A stretch of DNA of 43,253 nt from Candidatus Binatus sp. (GTDB lineage Bacteria > Desulfobacterota > Binatia > Binatales > Binataceae), in the NCBI RefSeq assembly GCF_030646925.1, contig NZ_JAUSKL010000114.1, positions 1-43,253 on the forward strand, written 5' to 3'. Made by a program: the position numbers and the translations under genes. This document shows, one piece after another, positions 21,128 through 42,494 of the stretch (position 1 is its first letter; the number at the start of each line of letters is the position of its first letter). Below the pieces are notes generated by a model. That model searched no databases, was not told the origin of the DNA, and was given only the letters and a program-made list of their open reading frames with translations.

Positions 21128-21202
21128 CGAAACTAAGGGGCGCGATGCGCCAAATCACAACGAAGAGGTGACGGCGCCAGCGAGCGAAAAATTTTCGAGA
21201 GT

Positions 21203-21345
21203 AGCGCCAGGACTCATGGCTCGAAGCCGTGAGTTGACGAGGTGGAAGCAGTATCGAGAGTGATCGGCGGATGGCTTCCCGGCTCCACAGTCGAAAGAGA
21301 TGCTTCAAACCGCGCGGGTGACCGCGCGACAAACGTATCTCAGGT
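21203..21345 (+). ncRNA. glmS ribozyme: glmS ribozyme (GlcN6P-activated self-cleaving leader)
   Basis: The catalytic core is recognisable by sequence: A|GCGCCAGGACU with the expected scissile bond between 21203 and 21204, GUUGACGAGGUGGA at 21233-21246, and AUCGAGAG...CGGCGGAUGGC before a CCCGG. P1 is a 9-bp hairpin CUCAUGGCU/AGCCGUGAG at 21213-21233; GGAAGC (21244-21249) pairs perfectly with GCUUCC (21273-21278). The 3' accessory part has GAGAUGC/GUAUCUC enclosing a 7-bp CGCGCGG/CCGCGCG hairpin with a GUGA loop (21311-21328). Known glmS ribozymes (Rfam RF00234) cleave their own mRNA when glucosamine-6-phosphate binds and repress glmS. Here it lies 314 bp upstream of the glmS start, same strand. 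Confidence 0.92.
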
Positions 21346-21516
21346 GGCAGGGCAATCGGCCCGGTTCTGAATTTCTAAACTCTCCCGCTTAGCCGTTTCA
21401 TCGCGTGGTTGTATCCGGGTCAGAAAACCCGGTACCGGCCGCATCGTTCCCTGACGAGCGCACGGATGTCCGTGTGCGATGCGATAACTCCGCAACCGGG
21501 AACGGGAGAGAATCAG

Positions 21517-34806: not shown

Positions 34807-35982
34807 CTACTTCGATTCCTTCATCGCGGCGACCAAAATTGCGGCCAGCTCGGGACGCGTAAATTCCGGCGGCGGCGGCTGGCCCGCGCGCAGCATTTCG
34901 CGCACCTTGGTGCCCGACAGGATCAAGCGGTCTTCCTCGGTATGCGGGCAGGTCTTGAACGACGCCATCCCGTTGCATCGCTTGCAGTAGAAGGTGTTTT
35001 CGAACATCAGCGGCGTGATGCCGATTTCTTCCGGCTTGAAGCGATCGAAAATCTTCTGCGCGTCGTAGCTGCCGTAGTAACTGCCGACGCCGGCGTGATC
35101 GCGGCCGACGATGAAGTGGGTGCATCCGTAGTTGCGCCGCACGATCGCGTGCAAGATCGCTTCGCGCGGACCGCCGTAGCGCATGTGCGCCGGAAACACG
35201 CCGAGCATCGCGCGGTCCTTCGGATAGTAATGATCGAGCAGCACCTTGTAGGTTTCCATCCGGACCGCGGCCGGCACGTCGTCGCCCTTGGTCTCGCCGA
35301 CCAGCGGATGAATCATGATGCCGTCGCAAATTTCGAGCGCGGCCTTCTGGATATACTCGTGCGCGCGATGAGTCGGGTTGCGGGTCTGGAAGGCGACGAT
35401 TTTGCGCCATCCGCGCTTGCGGAACTCGGCTCGGGTCTGGCGCGGCTCACGCGGATATTCGAGGAACGTGCGGCCGGGAATTTCGTCGATCAGCGTGATG
35501 CATCCGGCGAGGCAATAGGGCGGCATCGAGGTGACGTTCTTGGCGCCGGGGTGCGCATCCTCGTCGGTGCCGAACACGGCTTTGGCTTCGGCGCGGCGAT
35601 CGACCTGGTAGATTTCCGCGAGCTGCATGATCGCGAGGCGCTTGCCGTCTTCGGTCGCGAGTGCGATGTCGCTGCCGATTTTGAGCGAGCGCGCCGTGGC
35701 TTCATCGACGGCGAGCGTGATCGGAATCGACCACGGTATTCCCGAGGCGAGACGCATCTCGTCGCGGCTCCGCTTGTAATCCGCCTCGCCCATGAAGCCG
35801 GTGAGCGGCGAGAACGCGCCGGACGCGAGCATCTCGAGATCGGCGAGGTCGCGCGCGTTGAGCGTGACGACCGGCAGCGTCGCGGCGCGCGCGCGCAGAC
35901 TGGCTTGCTCGGAGGCGGTCGCTTTCAGATCGACCAGTTCGCCGCCGCCGTGCGCCGTGATTGGATCTTCATGCACGCTCAT
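34807..35982 (-). CDS. sat: Sulfate adenylyltransferase (ATP sulfurylase)
   Basis: 391 residues, single-chain Sat/MET3-type. Nucleotide site [11 protein letters not shown] (199-209), [20 protein letters not shown] and the [12 protein letters not shown] loop. Zinc-type cysteines occur in [15 protein letters not shown] near the end. It activates sulfate to APS. The start overlaps the cysC stop (ATGA), so APS production and phosphorylation are coupled. Without APS/PAPS reductase in the window, the downstream route (assimilation or sulfation) is not shown, but the cluster context favours assimilation. Confidence 0.95.
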
Positions 35983-36521
35983 CGGCGTGCTCCTTTGTTG
36001 ATGTAGTTCAGCTCTTCGAGGCGCGCGATCAATTTCCCGAGGCTCTCCGCGACGCTTTCGATGCTGCTATCGACAACCAGTTCGGGGGTGTGCGGTTCCT
36101 CGTACGGGTCGGAAACGCCGGTGAAGGATTTGATTTCGCCGGCGAGGGCTTTTTTGTAGAGGCCTTTGACGTCGCGCTCGACGAGTTTGTCGATGGTGCA
36201 GCGGACGAAGACTTCGACGAAGCGATCGTGGAGGCGGCGGACTTCGTCGCGGACTTCGCGGTAGGGGGAAATGGCGGCGGAGATCACGATCACGCCGTTG
36301 CGCGCAAGCAGATGGCTCACGTAGCCGATGCGGCGAATATTGATGTCGCGATCTTCCTTCGAAAAACCGAGTCCCTTGGAGAGATTGGTGCGGACTTCGT
36401 CGCCGTCGAGGATTTCGACGCGATGGCCCCGTTCGCGGAGTTCAGTCGCGAGCAATTCAGCGAGGGTGGACTTTCCGGCCCCGGACAGACCTGTAAACCA
36501 CAAGGTAAAACCCTGATCCAT
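35979..36521 (-). CDS. cysC: Adenylylsulfate (APS) kinase
   Basis: 180 residues. P-loop GLSGAGKST (10-18), [33 protein letters not shown] and [25 protein letters not shown] are the family hallmarks. It phosphorylates APS to PAPS. Overlaps sat by 4 bp. The 140-bp leader upstream separates it from the HAD gene. Confidence 0.95.
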
Positions 36522-36661: not shown

Positions 36662-37711
36662 TCAGGATGAAGAGAAAATCAGGTTGAGATGAATCGAGAG
36701 GGCGGCGGGAGAGGAATAGATTTCGCCGGCGCCGGCGGCCAGTAATCGATCGCGCGATTTATCGTCGTGCGCGATTCCATAGAAGCGAACGTGCGCGGAG
36801 CGGGCCGCGACGAAGTCGGCCTCGCTGTCGCCGACGAATGCTGCGTCGTCGGCGCGCGCGGACAATTGCTCGAGCGCTCGAATGATCATGTCGGGCGCGG
36901 GCTTGAGGGGGAGCATCGAGTCGCGGCCGACGATTACTGCGATCCAATCGGGCGGGTCGGAGATTACGGCATTGAGATCCTTCGACTCCGGCAGCCTCCG
37001 CTCAGGATGACGGAGGGGAGGCAGCCTGCCCCGTTCGACTTCGCTCAGGGCTTCGGCTGCTGGATGACGGAGGGGAGGAACGGACTGGGCATCGCGCGGT
37101 GCGTTAGCGTGCGATCCGGCACCCTCACCTACCTCGTCCCCGGCGGGACTCGGCCTCCCTTCGACAGGCTCAGGGCAGGCTCTCAATGGTCTGATAACGG
37201 GCGAGGTATAAGAGCCGGCAGCTTGCGCGTCGGGATGACGGTGTGAGGCAGGCGACGACTCCGGATTATGGAGGGGAGCGGCGGGCGGCAGCGGGGGGAG
37301 GGGGTGGAGCTCGAACCAGCGGCGGATCGTGCGCGAGGAGTTCGAGGAGACGATCGCGACCTGTGCGCCGCGGTCGCGCAGTGCCGCGAGCAATGCGATT
37401 GCGCCTTCGAGCGGCTTCGCGCGATCGACGCCGGCCAGTTCGATCTTCTCAATCATCGCGGAGGCGGAGCGGAGATTCTGGCGTTCGCTCGGGCCGATGC
37501 CGTCGGCGACGAGCAGTTTGCGGTAGGCGTCGTAGAGCGGGAGATTGCCGCGCGGAATCCGCTCGAAAATATCCGCCGGCGCGCCGACCGAGCGGAGAAA
37601 CGGCTCGAGCTGTAGGCGGCCGCCGGCCCAATCGACCTCGGGCTCGAGGCGGGCGATGGTGTTATCGAAATCGAAGATCCAGAACTTTGTCATCGTGATT
37701 GAGGGTAGCAT
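36662..37711 (-). CDS. HAD hydrolase interrupted in frame by repeat-derived DNA
   Basis: 349 residues from ATG 37711 (AGGGG five bases upstream); ATG 37693 is the alternative. HAD motif I FDFDNTIARLE, motif II AIVSSNSSRTIRRWFE, motif III KPAPDMIIRALE and motif IV AFVGDSEADFVAA are all present and in order. Between motif II and III a stretch of about 113 residues (about 137-249) of low-complexity Pro/Arg/Ser/His sequence, including PEPVEG and PESKDLN, interrupts the fold exactly where the core strand should continue (IAVIVGRD). Those peptides are translations of short dispersed repeats. Reading frame is kept. Whether the enzyme still folds is open. Confidence 0.75.
   Translation of the reverse strand: MLPSITMTKFWIFDFDNTIARLEPEVDWAGGRLQLEPFLRSVGAPADIFERIPRGNLPLYDAYRKLLVADGIGPSERQNLRSASAMIEKIELAGVDRAKPLEGAIALLAALRDRGAQVAIVSSNSSRTIRRWFELHPLPPLPPAAPLHNPESSPASHRHPDAQAAGSYTSPVIRPLRACPEPVEGRPSPAGDEVGEGAGSHANAPRDAQSVPPLRHPAAEALSEVERGRLPPLRHPERRLPESKDLNAVISDPPDWIAVIVGRDSMLPLKPAPDMIIRALEQLSARADDAAFVGDSEADFVAARSAHVRFYGIAHDDKSRDRLLAAGAGEIYSSPAALSIHLNLIFSSS
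36965..37303. repeat. Mosaic of dispersed repeats inserted in the HAD gene
   Basis: About 339 bp (113 codons) with no HAD homology. It contains the 36-nt unit at 36976-37011 that matches 26135-26170 inverted (33/36), a TTCGACTTCGCTCAGGGC unit at 37034-37051, a CCTTCGACAGGCTCAGGG unit at 37158-37175, and the 17-mer GGATGACGGAGGGGAGG twice (37005-37021 and 37062-37078). Length divisible by three and no stop codon in the HAD frame. Confidence 0.7.
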
Positions 37712-37831
37712 CGCGACCCCTGGATTCATCCTTCGCAATTCGGCGGGCCCGCGCGATCATTTCGGGACCGGGATTCTTTTCTTCGCTCAGAATTTGTGAA
37801 TTTTTAATAGCGAGCGAACCAGACCAACCTT

Positions 37832-37897
37832 GTCATTCTGAGGCGAAGGTGGTGAAGTTCGCTGGCTAGAGAAAGTTTCACAGACTTTCAGGATGAC
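37832..37897. repeat. Palindromic repeat at the 3' end of the degenerate E1 gene
   Basis: GTCATTCTGA (37832-37841) and TCAGGATGAC (37888-37897) are inverted with one mismatch and bound a 66-bp unit related to the other dispersed repeats (compare GTCATCTTGAGCGG at 26135). The right arm supplies the TGA stop of the degenerate E1 gene. Confidence 0.6.
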
Positions 37898-38559
37898 GGA
37901 ACGGAGCGATCGTGGGCGCCGCAAGTGCAGGCGGAAGTCACCGGGTGCGGGCGGGTGGCGTAGCCCTCGAAATCGATTATCACCGAAGACGGATTCTCGG
38001 AGTAACCCGCCAGCAGTTTGAGGGACTCGGTGGTCGCGAGCATCGCGACGAAATCTGCTGACGCGGAATGATTCGACACGGATTGTGCGAGCAACGATGC
38101 GTCGGCGCATCGCGGACACGACGATGCCGCGGCGAGAATTGCGAGCCTCGATGGATCGTCGAGGCGCGCGATGACGTATGCGGTTGCGTCGATGCGATCC
38201 GCGAGCGTGGCGGCGAGATCGCGCAATGCGTCGTCGCCTATGAGGAGCATCGCGAGGTCGAATCGATTCGGCGAATCGATATCGAGGACGCTACCCAGAT
38301 CGATGGTGACGTCGGGATTCAGCACGCGCATTTTATCTAGATGATCGGATTTTTTCAGGCGATCGGAGTTATCAGCTAACGCGAGTCGAATTGAGCCGAC
38401 GCCGGCGCCGACGAGATATGCGAGCGGTTGTTCAATATCGTGCAGTTCGCCGGCGAGCAGCATTTTGGCGCCGAGCAGGCGCTCCTGGGCGCGCCCGCCG
38501 ATGCCAGGAACGATTATCTGGCGGCTGTAGCGTTCGATTTGCGCGTCAGTCAGGGGCAT
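37888..38559 (-). CDS. Degenerate (non-adenylating) E1/ThiF-MoeB-like protein
   Basis: 223 residues. The N-terminus is canonical for MoeB/ThiF: RYSRQIIVPGIGGRAQERLLGAK (starting at Arg10). At the place of the GxGGLG ATP loop it has LAGELHDIEQP (36-45), the SNLxRQ arginine is gone, and DATDN is replaced by LLIGDDALRD. The C-terminal cysteine pairs CPRC (148-151) and CTCG (211-214) are retained. So it kept the part that reaches into the partner's active site but lost its own nucleotide site. It lies 38 bp after the NIL gene, in the same operon as an intact E1-like gene (41511-42245). The stop lies in a repeat just past the CTCG motif. Could also be a decaying paralogue. Confidence 0.78.
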   Translation of the reverse strand: MPLTDAQIERYSRQIIVPGIGGRAQERLLGAKMLLAGELHDIEQPLAYLVGAGVGSIRLALADNSDRLKKSDHLDKMRVLNPDVTIDLGSVLDIDSPNRFDLAMLLIGDDALRDLAATLADRIDATAYVIARLDDPSRLAILAAASSCPRCADASLLAQSVSNHSASADFVAMLATTESLKLLAGYSENPSSVIIDFEGYATRPHPVTSACTCGAHDRSVPSS

Positions 38560-38597
38560 CGTGGGATTGCAATTCGGCCCGCGCGGGGCGCGCGCCG

Positions 38598-38843
38598 CTA
38601 CTCGATGACGTTCTTTTCAATCGGCTCGACGGTGACACCAGTGTCGCGCAGCCAGGTGAGCGCGCGCTCGATTTGATCGCTGCTGCCTTCGAACTCGACG
38701 GCGACCAGGCCCATCTCCTCGGACACGCTCGCGCCGCGGATATTGAAAATCAGGTCGAACTTTTTCACGAGGTGATAAAGGATCGGCTCCTTGATCAGGG
38801 CGCGCGGATAACTCAGGTAGTAACGTTCGTGAATTCGGTCCAT
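38598..38843 (-). CDS. NIL-domain protein
   Basis: 81 residues, a stand-alone NIL domain (ferredoxin-like; PF09383): RYYLSYPRALIKEPILYHLVKKFDLIFNIRGASVSEEMGLVAVEFEG, then a helix and a last strand. NIL domains occur at the C-terminus of MetN methionine transporters and with archaeal/bacterial homocysteine synthesis proteins, so it fits sulfur amino-acid metabolism. Located 36 bp after the CysM-like gene. Confidence 0.85.
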   Translation of the reverse strand: MDRIHERYYLSYPRALIKEPILYHLVKKFDLIFNIRGASVSEEMGLVAVEFEGSSDQIERALTWLRDTGVTVEPIEKNVIE

Positions 38844-38879
38844 TAGTCAGTCACTTTTCCCAGATAGTCACTTGAATAG

Positions 38880-39911
38880 TCACTTGTTGCGCTTGAGGCG
38901 CCACTCCTGCCATCCGATCCACAAGTTGGTGGAGAGATACTTGTCGCCGAAATCGCTAAACACGGTGACGATTGTGCCGTGGCGGATCGAGTTGGCGAGC
39001 TTGATCGCGGCGACCATCGCCGCGCCCGACGATTGTCCGACCAGCAGGCCTTCGGTCTCGGCGAGGCGGTAGACCATCTCGTAGGCGTCTTCGGTGCTGA
39101 CCGGGATTTTCCCGTCGAGCTGATTTTCGTGATAGATGCCCGGCACGATCGACGACGCCATGTGCTTGAGGCCCTCGAGGCCGTGGAACGGATCGTCGGG
39201 CTCGACCGCGATCACCTGGACGTTGCGATTCTGCGTTTTCAGGAATCGGCCGACGCCCATCACGGTGCCGCCGGTGCCGATCGCCGCGAGGAAGTGCGTG
39301 ACCTCGCCGCGCGTCTGGCGCCAGATTTCGGGGCCAGTGGTTTTGAAGTGGGCGAGCGAGTTCGCCTCGTTGTTGTACTGATCGGGCTTGAAGAAGCGAT
39401 CGGGATTTTGCTCGAGCATCTGGCGGCACATGATAATCGCGCCGTCGGAACCTTCCTGCGGATCGGAATAGTGGATGGCCGCGCCGAAGGCCTGGATAAT
39501 TTTTTTGCGTTCGCGGCTGACATTCGACGCCATCACTAGTTCGACCGGGTAGCCGAGCGTCGCACCGAGCATCGCAAGCGCGATACCGGTATTGCCTGAG
39601 GTGGATTCGAGGATCACTTTGCCGGGTTTGAGCTTGCCCTCTGCGATGCCGACCTCGAGCATGTTTTTGGCGGGGCGATCTTTCACCGAGCCGCCGGGAT
39701 TGAAGCCCTCGAGCTTGGCGAAGATACGCACGCCGCGCGGAATCAAGCCCTCGGTGAGGCGCCTGATTTCGAGGATCGGCGTGTTGCCGACCAGATCGAG
39801 CACGCTTTGTGCGCGCGCGATCGGGGCGACTTCCACGCCTGCCCGCGTCGAGCCGCCGGATGGTCTAGCGTCCGCCGGCAATCGCGGGAACGATTGAGAT
39901 GTCGTCGCCAT
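38880..39911 (-). CDS. CysM/CysK-family PLP synthase, probably sulfur-carrier dependent
   Basis: 343 residues. PLP lysine in NPGGSVKDRPAKNML, substrate loop STSGNTGIALA, GTGGTVMGVGRFLK phosphate-binding loop and VGQSSGAAMVAA. Beta-substitution enzymes of this group make cysteine from O-acetyl- or O-phosphoserine. The adjacent MoaD-like gene recalls mycobacterial CysM, which takes sulfur from CysO thiocarboxylate. The ATG at 39911 has AAGGT upstream but overlaps the carrier gene by 47 bp; GTG at 39836 is the alternative and gives a more typical N-terminus. A homoserine-derived acceptor is possible given the SAM riboswitch. Confidence 0.88.
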   Translation of the reverse strand: MATTSQSFPRLPADARPSGGSTRAGVEVAPIARAQSVLDLVGNTPILEIRRLTEGLIPRGVRIFAKLEGFNPGGSVKDRPAKNMLEVGIAEGKLKPGKVILESTSGNTGIALAMLGATLGYPVELVMASNVSRERKKIIQAFGAAIHYSDPQEGSDGAIIMCRQMLEQNPDRFFKPDQYNNEANSLAHFKTTGPEIWRQTRGEVTHFLAAIGTGGTVMGVGRFLKTQNRNVQVIAVEPDDPFHGLEGLKHMASSIVPGIYHENQLDGKIPVSTEDAYEMVYRLAETEGLLVGQSSGAAMVAAIKLANSIRHGTIVTVFSDFGDKYLSTNLWIGWQEWRLKRNK

Positions 39912-40143
39912 CCTTGACCTTGGAATTCAGCGAATCGAGGAAGCGGACGTCGTCGCCGTTCAGGTAGATATTGACGAAGCGGCGGATGTCGCCTTTCTCG
40001 TCGAGCAGCCGCTCGCGCATCCCGGGATGCCGCCGTTCGAGATCCTCGATTACGGCCTTGATCGACGCGCCATCGGCGGGGACTTCATCGACACCTGCGG
40101 TGAACCTTCTAAGTGGGGTTGGAACCCTGACCCGTACTCCCAT
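39865..40143 (-). CDS. MoaD/ThiS/CysO-like sulfur carrier with GG-Arg tail
   Basis: 92 residues, ubiquitin-like: VRVRVPTPLRRFT, SIKAVIEDLERRHPGMRERL, FVNIYLNGDDVRFL, DGDDISIVPAIAGG and a final Arg92. GG at 90-91 would be adenylated by an E1 and converted to a thiocarboxylate. Because Arg follows GG, the tail must be trimmed first, as with HcyS of Wolinella, which ends GGA. No JAMM/Mec-type protease gene is in the window. GGAGG lies 10 bp before the ATG. Partner genes flank it: thrC upstream and the CysM-like gene downstream. Confidence 0.88.
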   Translation of the reverse strand: MGVRVRVPTPLRRFTAGVDEVPADGASIKAVIEDLERRHPGMRERLLDEKGDIRRFVNIYLNGDDVRFLDSLNSKVKDGDDISIVPAIAGGR

Positions 40144-40226
40144 GGAATGAACAATGCCTCCGAGTTGAAATTCTAGATTTATGCGGTGTCAGTCATCCAA
40201 ACAAGGCGCCCCTCGCGGCGAGCCGA

Positions 40227-41489
40227 TCACGCGGCGCCCGCGGCGGCGCGCTTGCCGTTGGTGAGGCGCTCGAACAACGCGTCGAAATCCTTGAGGCGAG
40301 CGTCGATTATCGAGGGCTGCTCGATCGCGCTCACAACCGCCTCGAGCGTCTTGTAGCCGTTGCCGGTAATCGAGACGACTACTGTTTCGTCGGGCTTGAT
40401 GCGTCCCTGGTTCAGCAGCTTCAGGGTGACCGCGAGCGTAGTGCCGCCGGCCGGCTCGGCGAAGATTCCTTCGGTGCGCGCGAGCAGTTTGATCCCGTCG
40501 ATGATCTCGGCGTCGGTCGCAACGTCGCCCCATCCGCCGGACTCGCGCACCGCTTTCAGTACGTAGTAGCCATCGGCGGGATTGCCGATCGCGATCGACT
40601 TGGCGATCGTGTCGGGTTTCACCGGCGTGATCAGGTCGGTGCCCTTGTGCAGCGCGTGGATCACGGGCGCGGAGCCAGCGGCCTGCGCCGAATGAATCTT
40701 GAAATCGCCGCTTTTGATCAGGCCGACTTCCTTGAACTCCTTAAATGCCTTGGCGATCTTCGGCAGAATCGTGCCGCCGGCAGTCGGGACGACGATGTGA
40801 TCCGGCAGACGCCATCCGAGTTGCTCGGCGACTTCGAAGCCGAAGGTCTTGGCGCCTTCGGTGTAGTACGGGCGGAGATTGATATTGACGAAGGCCCAGC
40901 CGTACTTGTCGGCGATTTCGCTGCACAGGCGATTGACGTCGTCGTAGTTGCCGCGAATCGTGATCACGCGGGCGCCGTAGATCGTCGAGCCGACGATTTT
41001 TCCCGATTCAACGCCCTCGGGCATGAAGATGTAGCATTGCAGGCCGGCGCGCGCGGCGTGGGCGGCGACCGCGGTCGCGAGATTGCCGGTAGAGGCGCAT
41101 GACACCGTCTTGAAGCCGAACTCGCGCGCCTTGGTGATCGAGACTGCCACGACGCGATCCTTGTACGAGAGCGTCGGATGATTGACGGTGTCGTCCTTGA
41201 CGTAGAGATGCTTGAGGCCGAGTTCCGCGCCAAGGCGTTTGACGTGCAGCAGCGGGGTGAAGCCACTGTTGGGGCCGATGTCGGTGTCGCTATCGACGGG
41301 CAGCAGTTCGCGGTAGCGCCAGAGGTTGTGCGGGCGCTTTTCGATAATCGAGCGCGAGATGGCGGCGCGAATTTTCGCATAATCGTACACGACTTCGAGC
41401 GGGCCGAAGCAGGTCTCGCATACGTGCAGCGGCTCGATTGGATATTCCTGGCCGCATTCGCGGCATTTGAGAAATTTGACGTAGCTCAT
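40227..41489 (-). CDS. thrC: Threonine synthase (or related O-phosphohomoserine enzyme)
   Basis: 420 residues, with an N-terminal zinc ribbon CRECGQEYPIEPLHVCETC (residues 9-27) and a PLP core: HPTLSYKDRV with the PLP lysine, CASTGNLATAVAAHAA, VPTAGGTILPKIAKAF and SITGNGYKTL. Known threonine synthases convert O-phosphohomoserine to threonine. Its place under a SAM-I riboswitch, next to a sulfur carrier and its E1, is unexpected for plain threonine synthesis, so a sulfur-accepting side role (homocysteine from O-phosphohomoserine) is conceivable but not shown. GGAGCAGGA precedes the ATG. Confidence 0.88.
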   Translation of the reverse strand: MSYVKFLKCRECGQEYPIEPLHVCETCFGPLEVVYDYAKIRAAISRSIIEKRPHNLWRYRELLPVDSDTDIGPNSGFTPLLHVKRLGAELGLKHLYVKDDTVNHPTLSYKDRVVAVSITKAREFGFKTVSCASTGNLATAVAAHAARAGLQCYIFMPEGVESGKIVGSTIYGARVITIRGNYDDVNRLCSEIADKYGWAFVNINLRPYYTEGAKTFGFEVAEQLGWRLPDHIVVPTAGGTILPKIAKAFKEFKEVGLIKSGDFKIHSAQAAGSAPVIHALHKGTDLITPVKPDTIAKSIAIGNPADGYYVLKAVRESGGWGDVATDAEIIDGIKLLARTEGIFAEPAGGTTLAVTLKLLNQGRIKPDETVVVSITGNGYKTLEAVVSAIEQPSIIDARLKDFDALFERLTNGKRAAAGAA

Positions 41490-41510
41490 GGTTGGTCCTG
41501 CTCCAGTTTC

Positions 41511-42245
41511 TTAAGGGCGCGCGACGGGCAATGTTCGCGACGTGCTTGATGTTCTCGATGGCTGCGACTTTGATGCGCCGCAGATGCATCCGCGCCGCGG
41601 CGATATCGGCGTGAGGCGGACGCGCGCGTTCGCGGCGGCATCGTAAGTCAGAATTTTTCCGGTGAGTGCGAGTTCTTCTGCGCGCGAGGCGCGCATCGCC
41701 TCGGCCGCTTGCATCGCGCCGATTGCGCCGGCGACGGGTCCTAAGATTCCTGCCTCGCGGCAGCTCGCGATTTCAGTTTCGTCGGGCGCGTTCTCGAAGA
41801 CGCATCGGAGGCAGGCGGTCGCGCCGGGAATCACCGACATCGCCTGTCCCGTCATCCCGATCACGCCGCCGTACACGAATGGCGTGCGCGAATCGAGGCA
41901 GACATCGTTGATAAGGAATTTCGCGACGGGGCTGTCGGTCGCGTCGATAATGAAATCGTGACGCGCGATCAGCCGGGCGGCGTTGGATGAATCGAGCGAG
42001 GTTGTGTGCGTCTCGACGGCGCAATCCGGAAATTTGGCGGAGATCCATCGCGCGGCGGCGACGACTTTCGGCGTGCCGAGATCGTCAGTCGTGAAGATCA
42101 CCTGGCGCGCGAGATTCGAGAGATCGATCGGGTCGGGATCGACGAGCGTCAATCGTCGAGCGCCGTCGCGAGCGAGCGTACACGCGGCGGGGACGCCGAG
42201 TCCTCCGATTCCCACGATCAGGATTGAAAATTCTCTCGTAGTCAC
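41511..42245 (-). CDS. E1-like adenylating enzyme (ThiF/MoeB/HesA family) lacking the RYxRQ helix
   Basis: 244 residues from GTG 42245 (GTG 42248 is adjacent; AGG lies 7 bp upstream). ATP site intact: GIGGLG (12-17), VDPD (35-38), SNLARQ (43-48), Lys60 and DATDS (101-105). Zinc-type pairs CLRC (145-148) and CICG (220-223) and a candidate catalytic Cys162 are present. The protein starts directly at the first Rossmann strand, so the usual N-terminal RYSRQ segment of MoeB/ThiF is missing; nothing like it is encoded in the upstream 35 open codons, which are riboswitch leader. The downstream degenerate E1 (37888-38559) carries that segment. Expected substrate: the MoaD-like carrier. Confidence 0.88.
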   Translation of the reverse strand: MTTREFSILIVGIGGLGVPAACTLARDGARRLTLVDPDPIDLSNLARQVIFTTDDLGTPKVVAAARWISAKFPDCAVETHTTSLDSSNAARLIARHDFIIDATDSPVAKFLINDVCLDSRTPFVYGGVIGMTGQAMSVIPGATACLRCVFENAPDETEIASCREAGILGPVAGAIGAMQAAEAMRASRAEELALTGKILTYDAAANARVRLTPISPRRGCICGASKSQPSRTSSTSRTLPVARP

Positions 42246-42346: not shown

Positions 42347-42356
42347 ACACACTCGC

Positions 42357-42471
42357 CTTATCTTCCAGGATGTCTCGCTGCCGAGCATCCTGCAGGAGTT
42401 AGCACCGACACCCGTCGCGGGTGCGGTTGCTGCGGCATCAGCGGGCCAGTCCCTCCGCCGCTCTCGATAAG
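42357..42471 (-). ncRNA. SAM-I riboswitch: SAM-I (S-box) riboswitch
   Basis: Read on the minus strand, the 115-nt element opens CTTATCGAGAG and closes GATAAG, which pair as P1 (42471-42466 with 42362-42357). Between them are the highly conserved GGAGGGACTGGCCC, the GCAACC segment after the P2 arm, and GGTGCTAACTCCTGCA, all S-box core signatures (Rfam RF00162). Known SAM-I riboswitches bind S-adenosylmethionine and shut off methionine/cysteine genes. It precedes the E1-thrC-carrier-cysM-NIL operon. Confidence 0.95.
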
Positions 42472-42494
42472 GCTCAAATCGCTACAGTCGGCTA

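Follow-up and report, generated by a model that had tools for sequence, protein, structure and literature searches.

In the heterodimeric E1s of eukaryotes, the inactive half keeps a YxRQ arm without a working ATP loop, while the active half keeps the ATP site without the arm. MoeB, ThiF and Uba4 are homodimers with two like sites, in which every chain supplies both an ATP site and an arm; in the Binatia operon described here, in contrast, these roles lie on two genes. According to passages of PMC7527816, the Uba4 site is composed of one subunit and Arg18 of the other, and the R18A substitution strongly lowers adenylation; in human UBA1, according to an excerpt of PMC12355090, a sulfate in the site of the gamma-phosphate lies at Arg57 and Arg515. 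The operon is located in a stretch of 43,253 nucleotides from Candidatus Binatus sp. (contig NZ_JAUSKL010000114.1, positions 1 to 43,253, forward strand), referred to below as the window. It encodes two E1-like proteins, termed here E1act (the short active half) and E1deg (the degenerate half). We consider it quite probable that these are halves of one heterodimeric sulfur-carrier-activating E1, in which the inactive half lends an arginine finger, and that this enzyme evolved separately from SAE1-UBA2 and NAE1-UBA3.

Complementary E1 halves

E1act matches the Pfam family ThiF (PF00899) with an E-value of 1.1e-62 and 211.8 bits, against a cut-off of 28.1, and its profile also matches UBA3 and UBA2. 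The original prediction, made from the window's letters alone, had ascribed to this protein a full ATP site and no RYxRQ arm, and motif and frame scans bear this out: GIGGLG, SNLARQ, Lys60 and DATDS are present, [YWF]xR[QH] was not found in the reading frame, and no RYxRQ-type motif occurs in any same-strand frame within the 450 bases 5' of the ATP loop. The start codon is probably the GTG at 42245. The single-chain AlphaFold model has a predicted local distance difference test score (pLDDT) of 92.2.

For E1deg the same prediction was that RYSRQ is kept and that the loop, SNLxRQ and DATDN are lost, and a motif search indeed found RYSRQ at residues 10-14 and no loop, SNLxRQ or DxTDN. E1deg matches no Pfam family at the 0.001 threshold, ThiF (PF00899) included, and NCBIfam models of the MoeB/ThiF type cover only about its first 70 residues, with scores far below their cut-offs. 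The first 65 residues can be aligned with Uba4, ThiF and MoeB through RYSRQ. A profile of 32 E1deg relatives matches ThiF (E 1e-29) and MoeB (E 8e-29) over nearly the full length, with the ATP segment absent, as well as SAE1, the inactive half of the SUMO E1 (E 1.7e-4). The single-chain AlphaFold model has a pLDDT of 89.3; by profile match and predicted fold, E1deg is kin to ThiF.

Analysis of the two families across the class reveals a complementary pattern. The counterparts of MoeB Arg73, Lys86 and Asp130 occur in all 98 short E1s, as do the Asn preceding Arg73, loop glycines 1 and 2, the first CxxC, and the cysteine at a position which we take to be Cys184 of ThiF. In E1deg, the second arginine of YxRQ (counterpart of MoeB Arg14) and the glutamine are present in 102/102 sequences and the first arginine in 89/102; the counterparts of MoeB Arg73 and of the preceding Asn are found in none, those of Lys86 and Gly41 in three each, and that of Asp130 in 13. 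Only four columns are invariant among the 102 E1deg sequences (Arg13, Gln14, Gln25 and Gly53), and the mean column identity is 0.34. Thus, the cis-acting residues are kept by one protein and the trans-acting ones by the other, with a few E1deg members carrying single cis remnants.

It had further been proposed that both cysteine pairs are retained in E1deg; this is true of the window's protein, but not of the family, in which the first Cys is kept in 79/102 and the last Cys in 50/102 members. Four genomes of the window's genus with a side-by-side pair (L053, L054, L055 and L056) have lost the C-terminal cysteines of E1deg.

The possibility that a frameshifted or mis-started E1act conceals an arm was rejected by upstream frame scans of 32 and 98 E1act sequences. 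In the first survey, with 32 split-type E1act, the 450 bases preceding the loop contain no RYxRQ-type motif in any frame of the same strand, except in G033, which has an out-of-frame RWLRQ 125 codons from the loop. Class-wide, none of the 98 short E1s has an in-frame [YWF]xR[QH] in the stretch preceding the loop (at most 34 residues), and the sole loose arm-like match is HVRK in G027. The arm column of the full alignment contains Arg in 32/98 E1act; we attribute these to the alignment of unrelated extensions of the reading frame, and none of them is taken for a finger.

Distribution of the split E1 among Binatia

We searched 148 genomes of Binatia (candidate phylum Binatota), of which 140 were typed (137 plus 3 loci fetched later); G009, G011, G059, G066, G092, G100, G108 and G118 are untyped. 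The original prediction had called for co-occurrence of the two genes in related genomes, and the same division was found in 95 of the 140: a short E1act together with E1deg, i.e. the arm arginine and the ATP site distributed over two chains, in 13 families (f1, f3, f4, f5, f6, f7 and f9-f15). These 95 comprise 91 genomes, G056, whose E1act is broken over contigs, and G079-G081, which have both halves in the split pattern. In seven more genomes (G022, G050, G052, G058, G065, G070 and G082) E1deg is present and E1act is either missing or truncated by the end of a contig. A single complete E1, with no E1deg found in the fetched loci, characterizes 34 genomes of three families (f2, f16 and f17); 33 of these E1s were read as complete, and that of G122 is cut by the contig start, so that its apparent shortness was rejected as real. 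In three of the 34 (G111, G123 and G134) the carrier lies off the fetched contig. G030 is the only genome of the 140 in which both paralogues are complete, and three genomes (G002, G063 and G099) have a short E1act without a found E1deg.

The absence of E1deg from the single-E1 genomes rests on the fetched loci. In a genome-wide profile search, the strongest hits in E1deg-free genomes were complete E1s among the matches listed; a very diverged E1deg may be present elsewhere in these genomes.

The order of the two genes is constant: E1deg lies downstream of E1act on the same strand in 86/86 genomes with both genes in one fetched locus, and in six further genomes the two are on different contigs. 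Both genes appear to be under purifying selection in six genomes of the genus, with ratios of nonsynonymous to synonymous rates (dN/dS) of 0.17-0.43 for E1deg and 0.17-0.42 for E1act. In 14 of 15 pairs, dN is lower in the first 35 codons of E1deg than in the rest, the exception being G005-G006 (0.054 vs 0.053).

To look outside the class, 248 relatives were kept from genome_contigs and the best 80 were considered. Among these 80, 30 loci contain E1deg and one more (L159) is cut short, and all 31 appear to come from Binatia genomes; the other 49 carry complete E1s. One locus with the operon and a split E1, L135 (CAMBFS010000033.1), is titled as a Klebsiella pneumoniae metagenome-assembled genome, which we read as a mislabelled record. 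In addition, 198 genomes of the phylum were searched, and 17 fetched loci of other classes were inspected by residue: a complete E1 is present in all 17, a cluster with two complete E1s occurs in two of them (G206 and G267), and in several the complete E1 stands beside relatives of the carrier, ThrC or CysM. Three Nitrospira loci seemed to have a short E1; this was rejected, as the arm is present as RYSRH. G181 contains an additional E1 copy with an internal deletion; in this E1 (L290, 3371-4210, plus strand) RYSRH abuts the end of the ATP loop almost directly, as if about 30 residues had been deleted.

Evolutionary history of the pair

We used two trees of the E1 sequences, both calculated without eukaryotic rows, and one of the operon proteins; the second E1 tree and the operon-protein tree are unrooted, and many branches are long. 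In a quick tree (support by Shimodaira-Hasegawa-like approximate likelihood ratio test only, no E1deg rows) a clade made up of the single complete E1s (99) stands next to the short E1act and one G030 copy (90), and the G030 copy in the place of E1deg is grouped among outside E1s. A more careful tree, built from 42 selected rows (9/102 E1deg, 9/98 E1act), has E1deg on one side of a branch together with the G030 copy that occupies its position (98/90), and the other G030 copy joins E1act (94/89). The approximately unbiased test does not reject a grouping of all operon E1s of Binatia in a single clade (p 0.078), although the tree separates E1deg from E1act. An origin of E1deg by duplication within the operon is thus neither shown nor rejected by the sequence comparison. 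The claim of independent evolution fits these trees, since the short E1s are sister to complete bacterial E1s of the same operon.

The operon-protein tree requires two state changes in total; the split therefore amounts essentially to a single event, retained through 13 families. We regard as likely, if with some reserve, a scenario in which two complete E1 paralogues in one operon underwent complementary loss, giving rise to an independently evolved obligate heterodimeric E1, with all stages (one complete E1, two complete E1s, an interdependent pair) still alive.

Proposed enzyme and alternative explanations

From the residue pattern, co-occurrence, gene order, selection and predicted single-chain folds, we infer physical pairing, the arginine contact, carrier specificity, sulfur chemistry and obligate dependence of the halves. 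E1act would bind ATP and the C-terminal GG of the carrier and form the acyl-adenylate. E1deg, with an E1 fold and no ATP site, would dock as the second subunit of a MoeB/ThiF-type dimer and insert its N-terminal YxRQ arm, so that Arg13 would touch the gamma-phosphate of the ATP bound to E1act. The conserved crossover cysteine of E1act would probably act in a later sulfur-transfer step, and the thiocarboxylated carrier would become the substrate of the CysM-like enzyme. The heterodimer envisaged in the original prediction is supported by the complementary division, by the co-occurrence of the genes and by retention of the trans arginine, as expected.

Several observations weigh against a heterodimeric enzyme. 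The ATP site has been lost to differing degrees: 23/102 E1deg, mostly of family f5, have a loose GxGxxG in residues 25-60, and one of them (G047) passes a stricter loop pattern; GxG[GA]xG together with NLxRQ was found in 0/102 E1deg. The many genomes with the pair are not independent, since the split is essentially one event. A short E1 without the degenerate gene, named beforehand as counter-evidence, does occur in three genomes: in G099 the contig stops after CysM and in G002 the contigs stop before the place of E1deg, and in G063 the contig continues into another gene after NIL. The G063 genome is 91% complete and also lacks cysC, which in its sister G064 is close to E1deg, leaving the case ambiguous between loss of E1deg and a missing contig. 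The tie of the pair to a single carrier is weakened by G001, G004, G005 and G006 of the window's genus, which keep E1act and E1deg as direct neighbors and in which no close orthologue of the operon carrier or CysM was found; in these four the pair therefore seems to have persisted beyond its operon partner and might act on a different carrier. Finally, the arginine could also come from a complete E1 elsewhere in the genome, the fingers of MoeB and ThiF are stated in passages of PMC13139853 not to be essential, and, in the same text portion, Tcd1 R59A cut the product ratio by 26%. Published accounts thus differ on whether the finger is essential, and the dead half may matter for docking or stability no less than for its arginine.

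The non-essential finger (PMC13139853, in part) also speaks for E1act working alone as a short homodimeric E1, with E1deg as a decaying paralogue. Short arm-less E1s of the ThiF type may work as homodimers, most pairs show a higher rate of evolution in E1deg than in E1act, zinc ligands have been lost from the E1deg of some species, and G063 has E1act without a found E1deg. We nevertheless consider this explanation unlikely: 13 families, with 102 genomes, retain E1deg, which is under purifying selection in the genomes tested for it, has a confident predicted fold and keeps Arg13 and Gln14 without exception, and decay would not spare just the trans residues. Moreover, where no E1deg was found and the E1 start is readable (G030 excluded), the E1 has its own arm in 33/36 genomes, the rest being G002, G099 and G063.

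Still less credible is that E1deg no longer serves E1act and instead is a scaffold or sensor that binds the carrier or CysM or controls the operon. In most of the operons mapped, CysM or NIL indeed closely precedes E1deg, and over 84 genomes the distances of E1deg also track those of CysM (partial correlation 0.38). They track E1act best, however, once CysM and the carrier are allowed for (0.48, with 1/300 within-family permutations as high), and the carrier much less (0.14); the most conserved part of E1deg is the E1 dimer arm, and the four genomes with adjacent halves and no close carrier or CysM orthologue found argue against such a role. That the partner and arginine donor of E1act is the complete rhodanese-E1 of the same cell (MoeZ-like, on contig C107, 414 residues with an RYARH arm), leaving E1deg another job, is very improbable, since that gene is on another contig, no reason would remain for Arg13 and Gln14 in 102/102 E1deg, and the single-E1 genomes G024 and G037 have a second E1 elsewhere and still keep the arm in cis.

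Operon organization and neighboring features

The coordinates of the operon and linked genes are listed in Table 1. On the minus strand, from 42473 to 34807, the order is riboswitch, E1act, threonine synthase-like gene, carrier, CysM-like synthase, NIL, E1deg, HAD-like hydrolase, cysC and sat. The carrier and the CysM-like synthase stand beside the E1, as in CysO-type, carrier-dependent cysteine synthesis. Of 20 related loci scanned for the riboswitch, 14 also have it upstream of their E1.

Table 1. Coordinates of the operon features and linked genes in the window
Feature	Position	Strand	Basis
S-adenosylmethionine (SAM, S-box) riboswitch aptamer, operon leader	42355..42473	-	Rfam RF00162, 90.9 bits, gathering 44.4
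E1act, short active E1 half, ThiF family, without N-terminal YxRQ arm, 244 residues	41511..42245	-	Pfam PF00899
ATP loop GIGGLG of E1act	42195..42212	-	motif read from sequence
SNLARQ of E1act; Arg47 = MoeB Arg73	42102..42119	-	motif read from sequence
Threonine synthase-like gene	40227..41489	-	NCBIfam NF006050, above cut-off
Sulfur carrier, ThiS/MoaD/SAMP1-like, C-terminal GGR	39865..40143	-	Pfam PF02597; NF041918, 61.1 vs cut-off 60
CysM-like cysteine synthase	38880..39911	-	Pfam PF00291; TIGR01138, E 1.7e-109, below its cut-off
NIL-domain protein	38598..38843	-	Pfam PF09383
E1deg, degenerate E1 half, RYSRQ kept, ATP site lost, 223 residues	37888..38559	-	motifs, alignments, predicted fold
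RYSRQ of E1deg, residues 10-14; Arg13 = MoeB Arg14 = Uba4 Arg18	38518..38532	-	motif read; numbering via alignments
Haloacid dehalogenase (HAD)-like hydrolase, linked gene	36662..37738	-	Pfam
Adenosine 5'-phosphosulfate (APS) kinase cysC, linked gene	35979..36521	-	Pfam PF01583
ATP sulfurylase sat, linked gene	34807..35982	-	Pfam PF01747

A linked JAMM protease is a feature of CysO-type cysteine synthesis. No JAMM/JAB protease gene was found among the nine operon-region genes scanned; one Prok-JAB match is located elsewhere in the window's genome, on contig C87. In most relatives the carrier has one or a few residues after GG, like the terminal arginine of the window's GGR, and a tail-trimming protease is therefore expected.

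The HAD-like protein has 358 residues, and relatives (e.g. a 239-residue frame in G003) align only to residues 12-149 and 261-354; about 110 intervening residues are therefore extra, and the insert in the gene resembles translated short repeats. A glmS ribozyme (RF00234, 92.1 bits) lies at 21192-21351 on the plus strand, just 5' of a long reading frame at 21409.

Comparison with known systems

The mycobacterial CysO-CysM-MoeZ system reportedly has a single, rhodanese-fused E1. Like the Binatia operon it combines a carrier, a cysteine synthase and an E1 (PMC3227635, in part). The same combination appears in row 4c of Iyer et al. (portion of PMC1779556), with one rhodanese-fused E1 and a JAB protease, whereas the Binatia E1 is split and without rhodanese. 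Yeast Tcd1-Tcd2, as described in passages of PMC13139853, resembles the proposed pair in being a heterodimer of the E1 superfamily, formed by an inactive and an active paralogue, with the finger coming from the inactive one; unlike the Binatia pair, it is eukaryotic and modifies tRNA, those passages name no carrier protein for it, and they call its finger non-essential. We found no earlier report of a heterodimeric bacterial E1 in the PubMed Central titles or starts of abstracts searched, and MoeB, ThiF and cysteine do not occur in the portion of the main text of the Binatota genome paper (PMC8262859) that was covered. The E1s in which one half is dead come from eukaryotes in the part of the literature searched.

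The SUMO E1 (SAE1-UBA2) and the NEDD8 E1 (NAE1-UBA3) share with the Binatia pair an inactive half with the YxRQ arm and an active half with the ATP site. The Binatia pair differs from them in being bacterial, in the small size of the halves (about 220-245 residues in the window), in its position nested among bacterial E1s, and in the lack of catalytic-cysteine and ubiquitin-fold domains. A canonical eukaryotic E1 active subunit includes a catalytic-cysteine half domain and a ubiquitin-fold domain (excerpt of PMC12355090), and E1act, with 244 residues, consists of one ThiF domain. No E2 gene was found among the nine genes scanned of the sulfur-carrier operon. If our interpretation is true, Binatia have repeated the step behind SAE1-UBA2 and NAE1-UBA3 without being driven by E2s or protein conjugation, and an enzyme of this kind in bacteria, linked to the synthesis of cysteine, would demonstrate that complementary loss in paralogues is enough and that no conjugation cascade is required. 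With the states before and after the split both living, the order of losses, and whether the dead half is needed for its finger or for dimer stability, become testable with small proteins. We conclude that the Binatia E1 is split and probably heterodimeric, an enzyme of the MoeB/ThiF kind with a division of labour like that of SAE1-UBA2, standing outside that family.

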